From positions 2,900,001 through 2,964,000 of the forward strand of contig NZ_CP029002.1 of NCBI RefSeq assembly GCF_003073375.1: a stretch of DNA of 64,000 nucleotides, in the 5' to 3' direction. This stretch comes from Lysinibacillus sp. 2017 (GTDB taxonomy: Bacteria > Bacillota > Bacilli > Bacillales_A > Planococcaceae). This document shows, in pieces, positions 12,366 through 61,305 of this stretch (the stretch's first letter is position 1; each line of letters begins with the position of its first letter). Position numbers and translations under genes: made by a program. The notes beneath the pieces are model-generated. The model was not told where the DNA came from, did no database searches, and saw only the letters and a program-made list of their open reading frames with translations.

Positions 12366-12471
12366 TTCTCTCATCTCTCAAAGTTAAACTTTGTGTGAAT
12401 TGGCACCTTTGCATAAATGCAGGTTGCCGGGCTTCATAGGGCACTTCCCTCGACCGCTCTTTATAAGAGTA
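12366..12471 (-). ncRNA. SAM-I (S-box) riboswitch
   Basis: Minus-strand leader of metN. It shows the S-box core: CTCTTATAAAGAGCGG, then GAGGGA, GCCCTATGAAGCCCGG and CAACC, a GC-matched P3/P4 region, and a closing 3' P1 strand ATGAGAG pairing with CTCTTAT. SAM binding favours the downstream terminator, switching off methionine uptake. Confidence 0.95.
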
Positions 12472-33773: not shown

Positions 33774-34208
33774 CTACTTTAGAGTAAGATGTACTTGAAT
33801 GTTTACATTCCCTTTTAACGCTTTACTAATCATACAAGTTTCTTCTGCTTTATATGCATAACGCTCCGCTAAACGAATGGCGCGCTCCAATTGTTCTTGT
33901 AGCTGTATTTCTACGTAATGATGAATTTCTTTATAGGTGAACACACCATTCGTCACGTCCACTAAGCCTTCTGATTTCATATTGAGCTTTGCTTTAATGT
34001 CGCTACGTTCGAGCATTGCCGCAAGTGTTATTAAATAGCAAGTGGCTGCTGCACCTAGTAGCATTTCATCAGGATTGGTCCCAATACCTGGTCCATCCAT
34101 TTCAGGTGGAATGGAAATTTGTGTAGAAAGTCGCTCTGCGTTTAAATCGCCTACCGCATTACGACCACCTGGCCAATCTAGTTTTGCTGTAAATGTATGT
34201 AGTGTCAT
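33774..34208 (-). CDS. OsmC/Ohr-family peroxidase-like protein
   Basis: A 144-residue OsmC-family protein (AKLDWPGGRNAVGDL near the N-terminus, then GTNPDEMLLGAAATCYLITLAAML, where the cysteine is the expected peroxidatic residue; a second cysteine lies in EETCMISKAL). Such proteins reduce organic peroxides in the cytosol. The most similar group by eye is the SACOL1771-type of peroxiredoxins. Start follows AAGGTGATTTTAG. First gene of the osmC-ubiB pair; its promoter must lie in the 110 bases before the repeat array. Confidence 0.9.
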   Translation of the reverse strand: MTLHTFTAKLDWPGGRNAVGDLNAERLSTQISIPPEMDGPGIGTNPDEMLLGAAATCYLITLAAMLERSDIKAKLNMKSEGLVDVTNGVFTYKEIHHYVEIQLQEQLERAIRLAERYAYKAEETCMISKALKGNVNIQVHLTLK

Positions 34209-34320
34209 CTAAAATCACCTTCCATTCTTTTTACTAACTATACCATTTCCGCTAATTACTGAGTGGTCAATTTATATATAGCTAGATAAAGCTATTTTCA
34301 AAGGGAATCGATTTTCTAAT

Positions 34321-35575
34321 AAAGTGGTTATTCGGGGGTAGTTATTTGGCAGGTTCTTCGCACGCAAGCCGCACAGCCATGTTGCACATGTCTGTACGAC
34401 TCGCCTTTGTGCTTCGTGAAAGACCTGCCAATAGAGGGTGCATCCATTTTCCTTTTGCTTGTATTCACGTGCTGGCGCTTACAGTGGTAGGCGCCAGTCG
34501 GTTTATTAGGCGAATCTTTTTATAAAATCAGGGAAATCACAGTGAATTCATCCTTTATTAAAGCGGTTATTCGGGCATAGTCATTTGGCAGGTTCTTCGC
34601 ACGCAAGCCGCACAGTCATGTTGCACATGTCTGTACGACTCGCCTTTGTGCTTCGTGAAAGACCTGCCAATAGAGGGTGCATCCATTTTCCTTTTGCTTG
34701 TATTCATGTGCTGGCGCTTACAGTGGTAGGCGCCAGTCTTTTTATTAGGTGAATCTTTTATAAAGTTGAGAAAGATAAGTTCAAGTGGATCCGCCTTTTA
34801 TAAAGTGGTTATTCGGGCATAGTCATTTGGCAGGTTCTTCGCACGCAAGCCGCACAGTCATGTTGCACATGTCTGTACGACTCGTCTTTGTGCTTCGTGA
34901 AAGACCTGCCAATATAAGGTGTATCCATTTTCCTTTTACTTATATTCACGTTCTGGCGCTTACAGTGGTAGGCGCCAGTCGGTTTATTAGGCGAATCTTT
35001 TTATAAAATCAGGGAAATCACAGTGAATTCATCCTTTATTAAAGCGGTGATTCGGGCATAGTCATTTGGCAGGTTCTTCGCACGCAAGCCGCACAGTCAT
35101 GTTGCACATGTCTGTACGACTCGCCTTTGTGCTTCGTGAAAGACCTGCCAATAGAGGGTGCATCCATTTTCCTTTTGCTTGTATTCACGTGCTGGCGCTT
35201 ACAGTGGTAGGCGCCAGTCTATTGGGTGAATCTTTTTATACAGTAGGGTTTATCATAGTGAATTCATCCTTTGTTATAGGGGTGATTCGGGTGTTTCATT
35301 TGGGCGGGCGCAGCACACATTCACAAAGCCTCTTTGCAAGAGTCTTTCGCGAATGTTCTTTGTGCTGTGTGTAAGGCCCGCCCATTCAAGGTGTATCCAT
35401 TTTCCCTTTACTTGTATTCACGGGCTGGCGCTTACAGTGGTAGGCGCCAGTCTTTTTATTAGGCGAATCTTTTTATACAGTAGAGAAAGTTTAAGTGGAT
35501 CTGCCTTTTTTAAAGTGGTTATTCGGGTGTAGTCATTTGGCAGGTTCTTCGCACGCAAGCCGCCAGTCTTTTTAT
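34321..35575 (+). repeat. Direct array of six ~240-bp two-hairpin repeats (U array)
   Basis: Units begin near 34321, 34560, 34802, 35041, 35276 and 35512 (period 236-242). Each starts AAAGYGGTKATTCGGG and holds hairpin 1 (in unit 1, 34346-34431, outer arms TTGGCAGGT/ACCTGCCAA), a linker CCATTTTCCTTTTGCTT with TGTATTCA, and hairpin 2 (34472-34497, CTGGCGC/GCGCCAG). Unit 5 has a different hairpin 1 (GGGCGGGC/GCCCGCCC arms). Unit 6 is truncated by a deletion joining the two hairpins at a CGC microhomology. No credible gene is inside; open frames that recur here follow the repeat period. Confidence 0.93.
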
Positions 35576-35761
35576 AAAGTAGGTAAAATCGCAATGTATT
35601 TATTTATCATCTAAATACTGTGAACTCATTTATCTAGAGTTTTAGTAGAAAAGGCAATCCTGCCATTATAGAATATAAGGCTTTGACAACTATTGAACCT
35701 TATCTATCCATATATTCATCCCTTTACAAAAAGAGAATCTGTGACAGTCCCTTTCACACTT
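35576..35761. other. Spacer between the two repeat arrays
   Basis: 186 bases of AT-rich unique sequence between the inversely oriented U and V arrays. No gene or clear signal seen. Confidence 0.6.
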
Positions 35762-36903
35762 AATTCAACGGACTCGCTTTAAAAGAAAAACGGCGCCTTT
35801 GCTCGCCAACAGCGCCGCCCCTGAATACATGCAAAAGTAGAATGGACTAGCCTTTGATTTGGCTGGCCTAGCATACCGCAACAGTATCAGTAGTAGGGAC
35901 ACGTACCACGTGACCCTGCTGCTGATATGCGGTCGCCTGCCAAATTATGAAACACCTTTATAGATTATTTATTAGAATTTGACTAGCTCTGACAATCCCT
36001 TTAACCCACAAAATTCAACGGACTCGCTTTAAAAGTAAACGGCGCCTTTGCTCGTCAACAGCGCCGCCCCTGAATACATGCAAAAGTAGAATGGACTAGC
36101 CTTTGATTTGGCAGGCCTAGCCCAAGGCGCAAAGAAGAGTCGTACAGATATGTGCAACATATCTTTGCGACTCTGGGCGCCCAGCCTGCCAAAAAACGAT
36201 ACACTTTCATAACATCTCTATTAGAAGATGACTAGCTCTGACAATCCCTTCAACCCACCAAATTCAACGGACTCGCTTTAAAAGTAAACGGCGCCTTTGC
36301 TCGCCAACAGCGCCGCTCCTGAATACATGCAAAAGTAGAATGGAACTATCCTTTGATTTGGCAGGCCTAGCCTAAGGCGCAAAGAAGAGTCGTACAGATA
36401 TGTGCAACATATCTTTGCGACTCTGGGCGCCCAGCCTGCCAAAACTCAATACACTTTCATAACATCTTTATTAGAAAATAACTAGCTATAACAATCCCTT
36501 CAACCCACAAAATTCAACGGACTCACTTTAAAAGTAAACGGCGCCTTTGCTCGTCAATAGCGCCGCACCCGAATACATGCAAAGGCATAATGGATTACAC
36601 TTTGATTTGGCAGGCCTAGCCCAAGGCGCAAAGAAGAGTCGTACAGATATGTGCAACATATCTTTGCGACTCTGGGCGCCCAGCCTGCCAAAACTCAATA
36701 CACTTTCATAACATCTCTATTAGAAGATGACTAGCTCTGACAATCCCTTCAACCCACAAAATTCAACGGACTCGCTATAAAATTAAACCCTGCCATATCA
36801 CGATACACTTTCATAACATCTCTATTAGAAGATGACTAGCTCTGACCAACCCTTCAGCCGACAAAACTTGAAATACTTTCATAGCATCTTTATTAGAAAA
36901 TAA
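35762..36903 (-). repeat. Array of ~250-bp repeats of the same family, opposite orientation (V array)
   Basis: Units begin near 35762, 36012, 36261, 36511 and 36760 (period 249-250), each starting AATTCAACGGACTCGCTTT; the fifth has lost both hairpins and a tail-only sixth follows to about 36903. Read on the minus strand each full unit gives hairpin 1, the linker CATTCTACTTTTGCATG then TATTCA, and hairpin 2, the same order as in the U array. In unit 2 hairpin 1 is 36107-36193 (TTTGGCAGGC/GCCTGCCAAA, inner AGAGTCG/CGACTCT and GATATGT/ACATATC) and hairpin 2 is 36040-36066 (CGGCGC/GCGCCG). Unit 1 has a quite different inner hairpin around CACGTACCACGTG. Confidence 0.92.
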
Positions 36904-36911
36904 TGCGCTGT

Positions 36912-36956
36912 AAAAAACAAAACCCACCAACAAGTTTGCACTCGTTGATGGGTTTA
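36912..36956 (-). terminator. Terminator of the ATP-grasp gene
   Basis: Arms AAACCCA-c-CAAC and GTTG-a-TGGGTTT, followed on the minus strand by TGTTTTTTA. Confidence 0.85.
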
Positions 36957-36965
36957 ACTGTGTGA

Positions 36966-38180
36966 TTACCACACGTTTTCTTTATATTTTTTATAGTAGT
37001 TCACTTGGCGAATGAACATGTAGAATTTACGTTTTAAGTGCTTGTCCTGCTTGTAGAATAATGGGTTAACTATTTTTTTCTCGCGAATTAAACGCTGAAT
37101 ATCCTTTTGTACATCTTTGTCTTCAACGAAGTTTTTCAGTACAATTTTAGGGACAACCGAGAACAGTACATCGCCTTTTAAGTAAGCGCATTCCTGTGAA
37201 CGATTGTAAATTAAATCATCGACAAAGTTACGTGCTAAATTATAGCCCATTGCATTGACATAATAGCTTGAACGCCCTTGACGAATATTCACTTCAAACA
37301 CTTTGAATTTGCCGTCGCGCTCATCGTATTTTAAATCGAAGTTACCGTAACCACGATAACCCACTGCTTCTAAAAAGCCGCGTAGTTTCATCATCACTTC
37401 TTCGTTGTAGCGTGTAATCAGGGCTGTGTAGTTCCCGATTGCTGTTTTTGTATGCTCTTGTAAAACCACTTGGGCAAATGAAACAAATTGTGTTTCGCCT
37501 TTTGAGTTCACATACACAACAGAATCCCACATTGCTGTATCTTCACCAGGGATATAATCTTGGATAATCAGCTGATCTTTATAGCCACTATTTTTAATCA
37601 TATCGATGACTTTTTGTACTTCTTCTTTGCTTTCCACTTTGAATACTTTTGCTTGTCCTTCAAATGGATGACGGCTGTATTCAATCCCGTTACTTGGTTT
37701 AATGATGACTGGATACATCATGTCTTGTTCGAAATCACCATCCGTTTTGCAATCATAAAAAATTGTTGTCGGAATATCGATGTCGTACTGTGCGCAAAGC
37801 TTATAGAAGTTCGACTTAATTTGTAAATCGTTCATTAATTCTTCTTCAATATAATTGAACACGAAGTAATTTTTTAAGATGTCTCGGTTTTCAATAATTA
37901 ATCGCACGTATAAATCGTTCGTTCCGACTAAAATTAATTTTTCTGCTTCACCTTCATATTTTTTCGCTACACTAATTAAAATTTTCGCGAACTGTGATGG
38001 ATCGGCTAATTTTTTGTCATATTCGATTGCACGTGGAATCGTACTTAAATTTGTAAATGGTAATACACCTTTCCCAACTAAAATGGGACGAATTTTATAT
38101 TCTTCATGGAATGAAATTGCCATGTTGTACGCATTAATATCAGTACCTACAATAATCGGTAAAAATGGTTGTTGGCTCAT
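36966..38180 (-). CDS. ATP-grasp ligase, possible D-Asp/D-Glu ligase of peptidoglycan
   Basis: A 404-residue ATP-grasp protein without signal or membrane segments. The N-terminal domain reads LPIIVGTDINAYNMAISFHE; the ATP-grasp core has YPVIIKPSNG, LIIQDYIPGED and YGNFDLKYDE, and FKVFEVNIRQGRSS holds the Mg-binding Glu/Asn pair. The N-terminal pattern (G-D-INAYxMAxSFHE) reminds me of Enterococcus faecium D-aspartate ligase Aslfm. Relatives of the suggested genera use L-Lys-D-Asp or L-Lys-D-Glu cross-bridges, so this could be the bridge ligase, but another carboxylate-amine ligase is possible. Single-gene unit with its own terminator. Confidence 0.75.
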   Translation of the reverse strand: MSQQPFLPIIVGTDINAYNMAISFHEEYKIRPILVGKGVLPFTNLSTIPRAIEYDKKLADPSQFAKILISVAKKYEGEAEKLILVGTNDLYVRLIIENRDILKNYFVFNYIEEELMNDLQIKSNFYKLCAQYDIDIPTTIFYDCKTDGDFEQDMMYPVIIKPSNGIEYSRHPFEGQAKVFKVESKEEVQKVIDMIKNSGYKDQLIIQDYIPGEDTAMWDSVVYVNSKGETQFVSFAQVVLQEHTKTAIGNYTALITRYNEEVMMKLRGFLEAVGYRGYGNFDLKYDERDGKFKVFEVNIRQGRSSYYVNAMGYNLARNFVDDLIYNRSQECAYLKGDVLFSVVPKIVLKNFVEDKDVQKDIQRLIREKKIVNPLFYKQDKHLKRKFYMFIRQVNYYKKYKENVW

Positions 38181-59202: not shown

Positions 59203-59454
59203 AACGTTTCCCCCTCTATGTATAGGTACTCCTAATTATACTAAAAATTCACTATATTACTCGTTCATAACTGGTATATTTTGTGAATTATGATTAATAT
59301 TGGATAATCACCGTAACATGGGGTTGATTTTTATTTGTATTCGTTTTGTCTAGCTATTGGCGGGCTACGGCATGACCGCATTATGGCCACGTGGTACGTG
59401 TCCATACTACTGTCTTTAATGCCGCGGTAGTGACCCCTTAAAGTTAGAGTTTTA

Positions 59455-60351
59455 TTATGCAGCTAATTGGTTGACATGAGTTCGGTATTTTACTGGGCTC
59501 ATGCCACCCAGTTTCTGTTTAATTCGTTCGTTATTATAGTAATCGATATAGTCTTCGACTTTCTTCTTTAACGCTTCATAAGAGGTTAATTCCTCACCGT
59601 AATACATTTCTTGTTTCAATAAGCCAAAGAAGTTTTCCATGGCCGCATTATCTGCACAAGTTGCTTTGCGAGACATGCTTTGGAAAATCTTGTTCTGCTT
59701 TAACGTGCGTACCCATGCCTTATGTTGATAGTGCCAGCCCTGATCAGAGTGAATTGTTATTCGATAGTTTGCGCCATCCTGTAGGACTGGGAGCGCTTGT
59801 TTCAGTGATGCCATGACGAACTCTAGTGTCGGCCGTTTTGAGATACTAAATCCAATTATCTCTCCATTATATAAGTCCATAAGCGGACTTAAATACAGTT
59901 TTTCGTCATTTGTACACTTGAACTCTGTTACGTCCGTTACGACTTTCTGTAAGGCATGTGGTGTACTGAAGCGACGATTCATACGGTTTTTAGCCACTTT
60001 TCCAACAGTCCCTTTATACGATTTATAGCGTGACTTGCGTACAAATTTCTCACATTTCAAGTTCAATTCCTGCATGAGGCGCTGTACTTTCTTGTGATTA
60101 ACCATGTACCCTTGTGCTTTTAATTCCGCATGAATCCGACGGTAACCATATCGCCCTTCATGTTTCTCAAACGTCTCTAAAATCAAGGCTTTCCAAGCTT
60201 CATCCGGGTTCTCGTTTTTGAGTTGCTTGATGTGATAATGGTACGTTGCTTCTGGAATCGCTACTTGTTTTAAGACATCGATTAATCGGAATCCTTCTTC
60301 TTTAAGCTCGAAGGCAATGGTTGCTTGTGCTTTTCGAGGAATGTTTTTGGG
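59455..60351 (-). CDS. IS3-family transposase OrfB (integrase catalytic domain)
   Basis: Catalytic part of the transposase, about 298 residues when read from the frameshift site. The DDE residues are in VVTDVTEFKC, IHSDQGWHYQ and NAAMENFFGLLKQE; the spacing from the second Asp to the Glu is exactly 35 residues. The HTH_21 region GRYGYRRIHAELKAQG is at about residue 65. There is no ribosome site of its own; expected product is an OrfAB fusion by -1 frameshifting. Confidence 0.93.
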   Translation of the reverse strand, partial: PKNIPRKAQATIAFELKEEGFRLIDVLKQVAIPEATYHYHIKQLKNENPDEAWKALILETFEKHEGRYGYRRIHAELKAQGYMVNHKKVQRLMQELNLKCEKFVRKSRYKSYKGTVGKVAKNRMNRRFSTPHALQKVVTDVTEFKCTNDEKLYLSPLMDLYNGEIIGFSISKRPTLEFVMASLKQALPVLQDGANYRITIHSDQGWHYQHKAWVRTLKQNKIFQSMSRKATCADNAAMENFFGLLKQEMYYGEELTSYEALKKKVEDYIDYYNNERIKQKLGGMSPVKYRTHVNQLAA

Positions 60352-60839
60352 TTCTCCCGAAAAGCCCTCAACTTTTTTAAATAAGCGACCTCTAAACGAA
60401 GTAGTTCCACTTCTCGTTCTAGCTGTTCTTCGCGTGACATTATTTCTTGTTTCGTTTTATTTGTTTTTTTAGGCATAGTTGGCCATCCTTTCACGCGTTC
60501 CAGGCCTTCTATACCTTCCTTTGAAAATTTAGCTTTCCATTTCGAGACCAAATTAGGGTCGTTCAAGTCAAATTGAATCGCTGTCTCCTGTAAAGAAGCA
60601 CCTGTTTGTTTCATAAAGTTTAGTACATTTAACTTGAATTGAACAGAATAAACTTGATCCTTCTTTTTCACCGCTAACCCATTTCGCCCAAATGCTTTAT
60701 AGGCGCTTACCCAACGTCTTACTTGTGAGGGTACAAGTGGTGCATATTTATTTGCAATTAATCGATAACCATATGGGCCATTTAAATATTCCTGAACGAC
60801 CTTTAATTTAAATTCTTCACTATACTTCGCCTTAGGCAT
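60282..60839 (-). CDS. IS3-family OrfA (helix-turn-helix DNA-binding protein)
   Basis: 185 residues with two helix-turn-helix segments (YSEEFKLKVVQEYLNGPYGY and YSVQFKLNVLNFMKQTGASL) and a C-terminal leucine-zipper-like helix LEREVELLRLEVAYLKKL used for multimerisation. The start ATG 60839 follows GGGGTGATGTT. Its last codons overlap orfB. Confidence 0.92.
   Translation of the reverse strand: MPKAKYSEEFKLKVVQEYLNGPYGYRLIANKYAPLVPSQVRRWVSAYKAFGRNGLAVKKKDQVYSVQFKLNVLNFMKQTGASLQETAIQFDLNDPNLVSKWKAKFSKEGIEGLERVKGWPTMPKKTNKTKQEIMSREEQLEREVELLRLEVAYLKKLRAFRENPKTFLEKHKQPLPSSLKKKDSD
60345..60351 (-). promoter_or_regulatory. -1 ribosomal frameshift heptamer CCCAAAA
   Basis: Read in the orfA frame as C-CCA-AAA, so a slip by -1 re-pairs CCC and AAA and enters the orfB frame (PKNIPRKAQ). 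It fits the X-XXY-YYZ rule. Confidence 0.75.
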
Positions 60840-61137
60840 AACATCACCCCAAAAGTTCGTTTTTAGCTCTAACTTTTGGGGTGCAGTACCCGCATGCAAG
60901 GCCCGCCAATACAAAGTGTTGTACTTTTTACCTGGTTAAATGCTTCAGATAATGCCGCTTGCGCTTTCGCGAGGCGGCTGGATTAATCAGAATTACATCT
61001 TATTAATGATATGAAAGTGAATGCCATTGTTTCATTTATGATTAACCCATTTCCTATAAACTATTTTAACTTTTATAAAAGATACTTATCGAATAAGCCT
61101 TATCTAAAAAACCTTATTAGAAAAAATTTTTTATTCC

Positions 61138-61305
61138 AAAATAGAGTGACGCGAAGCGCAGGGGGCGACTCCTTGGGGATTAAGCGTGAGCGGAATATCC
61201 ACTTGTTGCTTGCCGCCGTAGAGGCAAGTAACAAGTTAGATGGAGCCACGCCCCCAGGAAAGCGTCCCCCGTAGCGTAGCAGAACGGACTTGATTAAAAA
61301 GGAAT
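61138..61305 (-). repeat. Long palindromic intergenic repeat, copy 2 (R2b)
   Basis: 168 bases, the reverse complement of 53239-53407 apart from about 6 positions including one indel. Same nested palindrome structure. Sits between the W repeat unit and the terminator of the PPOX-fold pair. Confidence 0.88.

Follow-up and report, generated by a model that had tools for sequence, protein, structure and literature searches.

What kind of element fills 2.6 kb of gene-free DNA with two oppositely oriented arrays of the same two-hairpin repeat? The question is raised by positions 34321-36903 of the window, by which we mean the whole 64,000-nucleotide stretch that was analysed (C1:2900001-2964000, from a chromosome that is a single 3.74-Mb contig). 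Here U units on the plus strand face V units on the minus strand, each unit having two hairpins, as an initial annotation of the window had already recognised.

Layout of the island

In each unit a linker of about 50 nt joins hairpin 1 (some 80 nt) to hairpin 2 (some 22-25 nt), and the repeat as a whole can be described as a two-hairpin core of about 150 nt plus a spacer of about 95 nt. The U arm (34321..35510, plus strand) holds five full tandem units, the cores of which the covariance model places at 34347-34495, 34586-34734, 34828-34976, 35067-35215 and 35302-35448; the fifth has a differing hairpin-1 interior (type U2). The initial annotation had counted six U units: five are indeed full, and the sixth is truncated (35512..35571, plus strand), its hairpin 1 stopping after the first arm and giving way to sequence that resembles the end of hairpin 2. 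Direct-repeat spacings are 239, 242, 239 and 233 bp in the U array and 249, 250 and 249 bp in the V array. The V arm (35761..36755, minus strand) has four full tandem units with cores at 35792-35942, 36041-36191, 36290-36441 and 36540-36690, the unit adjoining the centre being of hairpin-1 type V2 and the remaining three of type V1. Remnants of broken V units lie at its outer end (36756..36903, minus strand), and the earlier count of four full V units plus broken ones holds. The two arms are separated by the centre (35572..35757, no strand assigned; grouped by eye on an alignment). U and inverted V are 74% identical over U positions 26-160, in agreement with the earlier view that they are one element inverted.

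Of the two neighbouring genes, one is OsmC-like and the other (36966-38180) encodes an ATP-grasp-type domain; the terminator-like hairpin of the latter (36920..36955, minus strand) lies just outside the island. No gene is apparent within the island, as had been annotated: the plus-strand ORFs of 73 and 102 aa that overlap the U array merely traverse the repeats. A CRISPR array is ruled out, since the units (233-250 bp) follow one another without a gap and are repetitive throughout; both it and a simple satellite had rightly been set aside. Elsewhere in the window, a SAM riboswitch (Rfam RF00162, 85.8 bits) is found at 12368-12469 on the minus strand.

Copies across the chromosome

The repeat is not confined to this locus. 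A search with one U unit, which scored 40 of 58 candidate regions, gave at least 126 genomic matches and thereby excludes chance as the source of the repeat; with one V unit (19 of 49 candidate regions scored) there were at least 89. The two single-unit searches gave 164 matches (overlap ≤40 bp), which are distributed over 24 islands with lengths of 0.26-3.4 kb; later searches added a small pair at 316 kb as well as two islands, at 293 kb and 760 kb. A pattern for hairpin 2 (GGCGCTN{5,17}AGGCGC) matched the genome 170 times, against 3 times for the reversed control; 169 of these matches were placed, one of which (730083) may be due to chance, and one was left unplaced.

A single rule governs orientation. 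Of these 24 islands, one has a single arm and the other 23 have two, which converge; among the 26 islands examined, including those at 293 and 760 kb, all 25 with two arms are convergent, as is the small pair at 316 kb. The second arm of the 460-kb island is a weak match (59 bp, 16.5 bits), and the covariance model finds one unit there. Arms hold 1-10 units, and several hairpin-1 interior types alternate inside one array. The centres are related as well. Those of 24 of the 26 islands (460 and 786 kb left out), aligned with V turned left, fall by eye into four groups. The first comprises 15 islands, including that of the window, with centres of about 170-210 bp, some with internal deletions; the second comprises five islands with a short centre, of which I2 retains almost none; the third comprises I3 and I24; and the fourth comprises I7 and I9, with longer, diverged centres. 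The centre of about 186 bp in the window, which had been taken for unique DNA, thus has relatives (by eye) in 14 other islands of the same genome.

The initial annotation had suggested that the element duplicated locally. In a comparison restricted to full-length units of the main types, the nearest neighbour of a V unit lay in its own island in 3/44 cases (2.1 expected), and local duplication is unlikely to be the main origin; for U units the count was 6/16 (1.7 expected), so that some local likeness does exist. Mean identity within and between islands was 0.913 versus 0.868 for V and 0.891 versus 0.860 for U. Descent of units by position from one island to another was not seen (V 2/11 and 1/11 against 2.4 expected; U 6/11 and 5/11 against 4.7). 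Because units do not resemble their positional counterparts, the case for copying of whole composites is carried by the related centres.

Two further observations concern sequences found with the repeat. A smaller module, consisting of a variable-arm hairpin and, after it, TGTGACGAAAGCGAAGCGACAGTCACA or a variant of that sequence, occurs inside hairpin 1 or near the centre (islands I7, I13-I16, I19 and I22, and the left unit of L131 and L137). The window also contains a divergent relative of the unit (59357..61270, plus strand; matches of 40.8 and 32.5 bits) with a hairpin 1 of the type seen in the congeners G002 and G011. This hairpin is split by a two-ORF, IS3-like insertion at about 59434-60882 (borders and label by eye), after which follow hairpin 2 (about 60955-60978) and a third GC-rich module (about 61145-61270). 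The 293-kb island (L265) appears by eye to hold the same IS.

Sites without the array and relatives in other genomes

The genus was represented by 16 Solibacillus genomes, this one and 15 congeners. At one island site, the gap between hpf and secA measures 1318 bp here, 35-332 bp in 13/15 congeners, 423 bp in G010 and 2258 bp in G004; the model finds no unit in this stretch in 14/15 congeners and one in G010. The other site is that of the window. The nearest named relatives of its ATP-grasp protein are those of Solibacillus merdavium and S. faecavium (88-89%), and in these two species and S. palustris the next gene comes directly after the terminator of the ATP-grasp gene, with no array. Of 79 named loci surrounding this gene, none has a match to the unit profile, nor does the covariance model find a unit in the three Solibacillus loci. 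Alignment A3 comprised 89 loci, with matches at E ≤ 1e-12. G010 has a single unit after the ATP-grasp gene (orthology judged by eye from the encoded C-terminus). No case of movement among close strains was observed, and with congeners 83-87% identical in secA, gain and loss of the array are indistinguishable.

The covariance model has matches (E ≤ 0.001) in 15/16 Solibacillus genomes: at least 150 in this genome, where 150 of 1114 candidates were scored, 45 in G010, 40 in G003, 33 in G011, 20 in G005, 19 in G015, 14 in G002 and 0-8 in the other nine. The initial annotation had proposed such a search of the family, and under stricter filters, with at most 20 candidates scored per genome, it found relatives in 22/151 genomes and 4/19 genera (three beyond Solibacillus). 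An exact-pattern scan of named genomes gave 0 matches, and plasmids and phages gave no match. In G107, which belongs to another genus, the arrays are one-directional and their sequence is much changed; the spacings are 239-243 in an array of four units and 249-251, with a last one of 214, in an array of five. In the same genome, a terminator-like hairpin after a CheR-like gene (L284, 1671-1692; by eye) has the hairpin-2 stem with its T-G mismatch, as if a hairpin of the repeat had been taken over as the terminator of a gene, or a gene terminator by the repeat.

Some congener copies take shorter forms, for which terminal inverted repeats, as they characterise the short non-coding, multicopy MITEs, were sought. 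In G003, both inverted ends (CTATATARGTTNAAC, ≤3 mismatches) are found in 16/31 copies, 277-291 bp apart, and the wrong-orientation control matches in 12/62 flanks. In G002, the 5′ motif is present in 7/11 copies and the 3′ motif, with the pattern used, in 0/11, so the ends of the form of about 615 bp in that genome are those of the consensus alone. Both ends occur in 1/21 copies in G010, and no common outer ends were seen by eye in the genome of the window. In the elements of about 600 bp found in G002 (L254-L264) and G011 (L239-L253), hairpin 2 is followed, at a distance of about 180-210 bp, by a third module that is GC-rich and conserved, GGGGGCGACTCCTAG...GGAAAGCGTCCCCC; five such loci were scanned with no Rfam match to this module.

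Proposed origin of the islands

The island is probably a single member of a family of non-autonomous, foldback-type mobile repeats that code for no protein. Counted in support are the presence of islands at some two dozen unrelated sites between genes, their uniform orientation, the kinship of their centres, a fold kept by compensatory change, relatives in other genera and absence from congeners at two sites. The initial annotation had offered a structured RNA family, a nucleoid or recombination site, and a non-autonomous palindromic element; the last is the best supported of the three, given its many copies, the empty congener sites, the lack of an ORF and the shorter, inverted-end relatives of one congener. 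The mobile composite would have the form V-array, centre, U-array, with inverted arms of 1-10 tandem units pointing towards the centre, and would have been multiplied at new sites with the help of a trans-acting enzyme. This enzyme may recognise the hairpins, with DNA a likelier target than RNA. Arms could grow, shrink and be homogenised through recombination between islands. Insertion would presumably be tolerated where it falls downstream of a gene's terminator and ahead of the following gene, and hairpin 2 with its T-rich tail might provide a further terminator in this genome.

A broader reading is possible but considerably more tentative, namely that these sequences form a bacterial mobile element of a new kind, built on a two-hairpin module of about 150 nt, with a fold conserved across genera, that travels in different vehicles and spreads without protein of its own by means of its hairpins as the recognised form, its insertion or survival being limited to the origin half of the chromosome. 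The vehicles might then be an inverted-end element of about 287 bp and a three-module element of about 615 bp (in one congener each), and the foldback composites described here.

Terminators and neighbouring genes

The arrays might instead have been selected between genes as transcription insulators, that is, as inward-facing arrays of intrinsic terminators that catch read-through from either side. The convergence of the arms would fit such a role, and so would the T-rich tail found 3′ of hairpin 2 in this genome (7-8 T per 10 nt in 70/87 V units). The region of the island has seven terminator-like sites where 2.7 are expected, and six of them are hairpin 2. At the outer ends of islands, a terminator-like hairpin with a T run points inward within 200 bp in 35/50 cases (some of these sites being repeat sequence itself), as compared with 14/50 on the opposite strand and 13.5 in shuffles; for sites scoring >14 the counts are 19 versus 3. 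Furthermore, an orthologous site between acyl-CoA-synthetase-like and peptidase-like genes (names by eye) is occupied in five congeners (G001, G006, G008, G009 and G012), by a unit or by units that face each other, the main arm counting 1-3 of them.

Against this, the T-rich tail is absent in G002 (1-3 T per 10 nt) and in most G011 copies, so a terminating role of hairpin 2 is not general, and the flanking genes manage without an island in congeners. The 78 copies examined in G003, G010, G011 and G002 (ORFs by a simple script) also count against it: single copies are antisense to both neighbours in 31/78 cases and sense to both in 18/78. The gene on the 5′ side faces the copy with its 3′ end in 32/78 and with its 5′ end in 46/78. 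Selection as insulators is therefore unlikely to be the primary explanation, but it is compatible with a mobile repeat as a secondary role. The excess of terminators at outer ends may itself show mere survival between genes, because terminators are expected after genes. Insertion after terminators was considered as a general rule and was not borne out by congener copies: there is no such preference in G003 (4/31 versus 6), little in G010 (8/21 versus 6) and G002 (5/11 versus 4), and some in G011 (7/15 versus 3).

Fold of the unit

Another explanation is that each unit is a gene for a structured non-coding RNA, arranged in tandem and with hairpin 2 as its terminator. Folding, which the initial annotation had proposed as a check, gave z scores of -3.6 for one U unit and -3.2 for one V unit relative to shuffles, and covariation is strong. 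RNAalifold predicts 32 pairs, 18 of them showing double compensatory change, for 26 diverse units (alignment A1, 26 of 29 units that were picked by pattern and thinned at 94% likeness, which missed the longer U3 interior). Slight trimming of this structure leaves 95.5% of its 770 cells paired. The number of cells with double change is 115, a value reached by 0/500 shuffles (shuffled mean 32.9), and falls to 6-18 after sliding by 1-3 columns; 18/30 pairs show double change, against a shuffled mean of 12.3. The pair-type count is not above shuffles (31 versus 31.7), and kinship among the units inflates the other covariation counts. Hairpin 2 has a T-G (U-G) pair in 132/135 sequences, which would also suit an RNA.

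Across 136 units, the 3226 cells of hairpin 1 include 3025 Watson-Crick pairs, 34 G-U and 78 A-C, and because G-U is not above A-C there is no RNA signature on the unit strand. Read on the opposite strand the same cells, which come from related units, give 78 G-U and 34 A-C, so an RNA transcribed from that strand is conceivable. Promoter-like sites are also scarce in the region (1 found, 5.4 expected; sigma-70 consensus only), and no Rfam family reaches its gathering threshold in the array: the best match touching the island edge is SpF43_sRNA, with 30.8 bits where 70 are required. No constant gene partner was seen by eye. Tandem RNA genes, which the initial annotation had listed as a structured RNA family, are thus a rather improbable account of these arrays.

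Position on the chromosome

DnaA (protein read by eye) is encoded at the contig start, and all 29 listed loci, as well as all 169 placed hairpin-2 matches, lie within 1.07 Mb of dnaA, a span that makes up 57% of the chromosome (the limit was chosen after looking). The farthest locus (2668222) is a hairpin-2 match only, in which the covariance model finds no unit. This concentration in the origin half might be taken to mean that the islands are chromosome-organising sites, arrays of hairpins bound by protein. The corresponding probability of 9e-8 assumes independent loci and a preset limit, neither of which holds. In addition, copies in G003 and G010 are scattered over the whole contig (the origins there were not located), and most congeners have few copies. 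A chromosome-organising function seems very unlikely; the nucleoid or recombination site suggested by the initial annotation may still be considered in view of the origin-half confinement.

Candidate mobilising enzymes

No target duplication is evident: the longest direct match between flanks averages 7.0 in 24 islands, against 6.9 for mismatched pairs, and fuzzy borders could hide a short one. Four families were searched as mobilisers (Y1, RT, TnpB-type and IS110), and none tracks copy number. This genome has 7 RT and 6 IS110 matches. The Y1 transposase (PF01797), with 0 matches here, is present in 9/16 genomes of the genus. Integron attC arrays are marked by R′/R″ core boxes, gene cassettes and an integrase; no cassette-like ORFs lie between units, and R′/R″ core boxes were not seen by eye.

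Derivation from a known ssDNA- or RNA-guided system (IS200/IS605 or REP/RAYT, a group IIC intron, an integron attC array or IS110) can hardly be upheld, despite the hairpins and despite a location next to terminators that recalls the group II introns of this chromosome, since this genome is without a Y1 transposase or TnpB-type domain, the window contains no group II intron RNA by Rfam (none at gathering, and none in 33900-37100 at E up to 5), G015 with 19 copies and G002 with 14 have no Y1, RT or TnpB-type match, and G011 with 33 copies has no IS110. The group II introns just mentioned are five near-identical elements of about 1.86 kb with a 433-aa RT (L287-L290), at C1 592459, 837278, 2275628, 2277489 and 2427742; four lie directly after a terminator-like hairpin and T run, and one lies in tandem after the preceding copy.

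Comparison with known elements

REP, REPIN and BIME sequences are intergenic palindromes, often in inverted pairs, that are mobilised in trans by a Y1-type transposase. The islands differ from them in that REP-type hairpins are 20-40 bp long, in the part of the account cited here (PMC3733652), and in the absence of Y1 from this genome.

A foldback-type repeat, as proposed for the islands, has its closest formal counterpart in foldback (FB) elements, which the cited part of one report describes as inverted repeats of a composite, multi-domain make-up in which the number of tandem repeats varies; their lengths differ within and between copies, and they have been called hotspots of ectopic recombination (PMC3169594). 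The islands likewise have long inverted arms with a variable number of tandem units. There are several differences: the FB elements described in that part are eukaryotic, and the repeat of one of them, Tm1, has about 14 bp (PMC3169594) where the present one has about 245 bp and two hairpins; and here no target duplication and, among the four families searched, no transposase-bearing relative was found.

The nearest bacterial kinds found are BOX and BrickBuilt, and inverted array arms do not feature in the cited parts of their descriptions. BOX of Streptococcus pneumoniae is described in its source, as far as cited here, as a modular, interspersed element of 67-637 bp with a predicted fold and 125 copies, which its authors read as parasitic; the internal module can be missing or repeated, and TIR and TSD are present (PMC3049150). 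Like BOX, the units of the islands are modular, dispersed, predicted to fold and present in more than 100 copies. However, the islands are inverted arrays around a centre, reach 3.4 kb, and show no TIR or TSD in this genome. The BrickBuilt MITE of Porphyromonas gingivalis (19 copies) has 23-nt repeats between a leader and a tail, with small inverted ends (PMC4596501, in part). It shares with the islands the tandem repeats inside a dispersed intergenic element but, on that account, lacks a two-hairpin unit and inverted arms. SPRITE, also of S. pneumoniae, resembles the unit in being a dispersed terminator-like hairpin with a T-rich tract, but it has one hairpin and 30 copies, and the cited part of its description mentions no arrays (PMC3049150). 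In the literature searched, from which subscription papers were largely absent, no paper was recognised as describing the present element.

Strong compensatory change without a wobble signature makes these repeats a good system for studying the conservation and copying of DNA hairpins. Some 170 hairpin-2 copies in the origin half provide a natural test for positional limits to the spread of repeats. For annotation, spurious ORFs in these genomes can be traced to such arrays.
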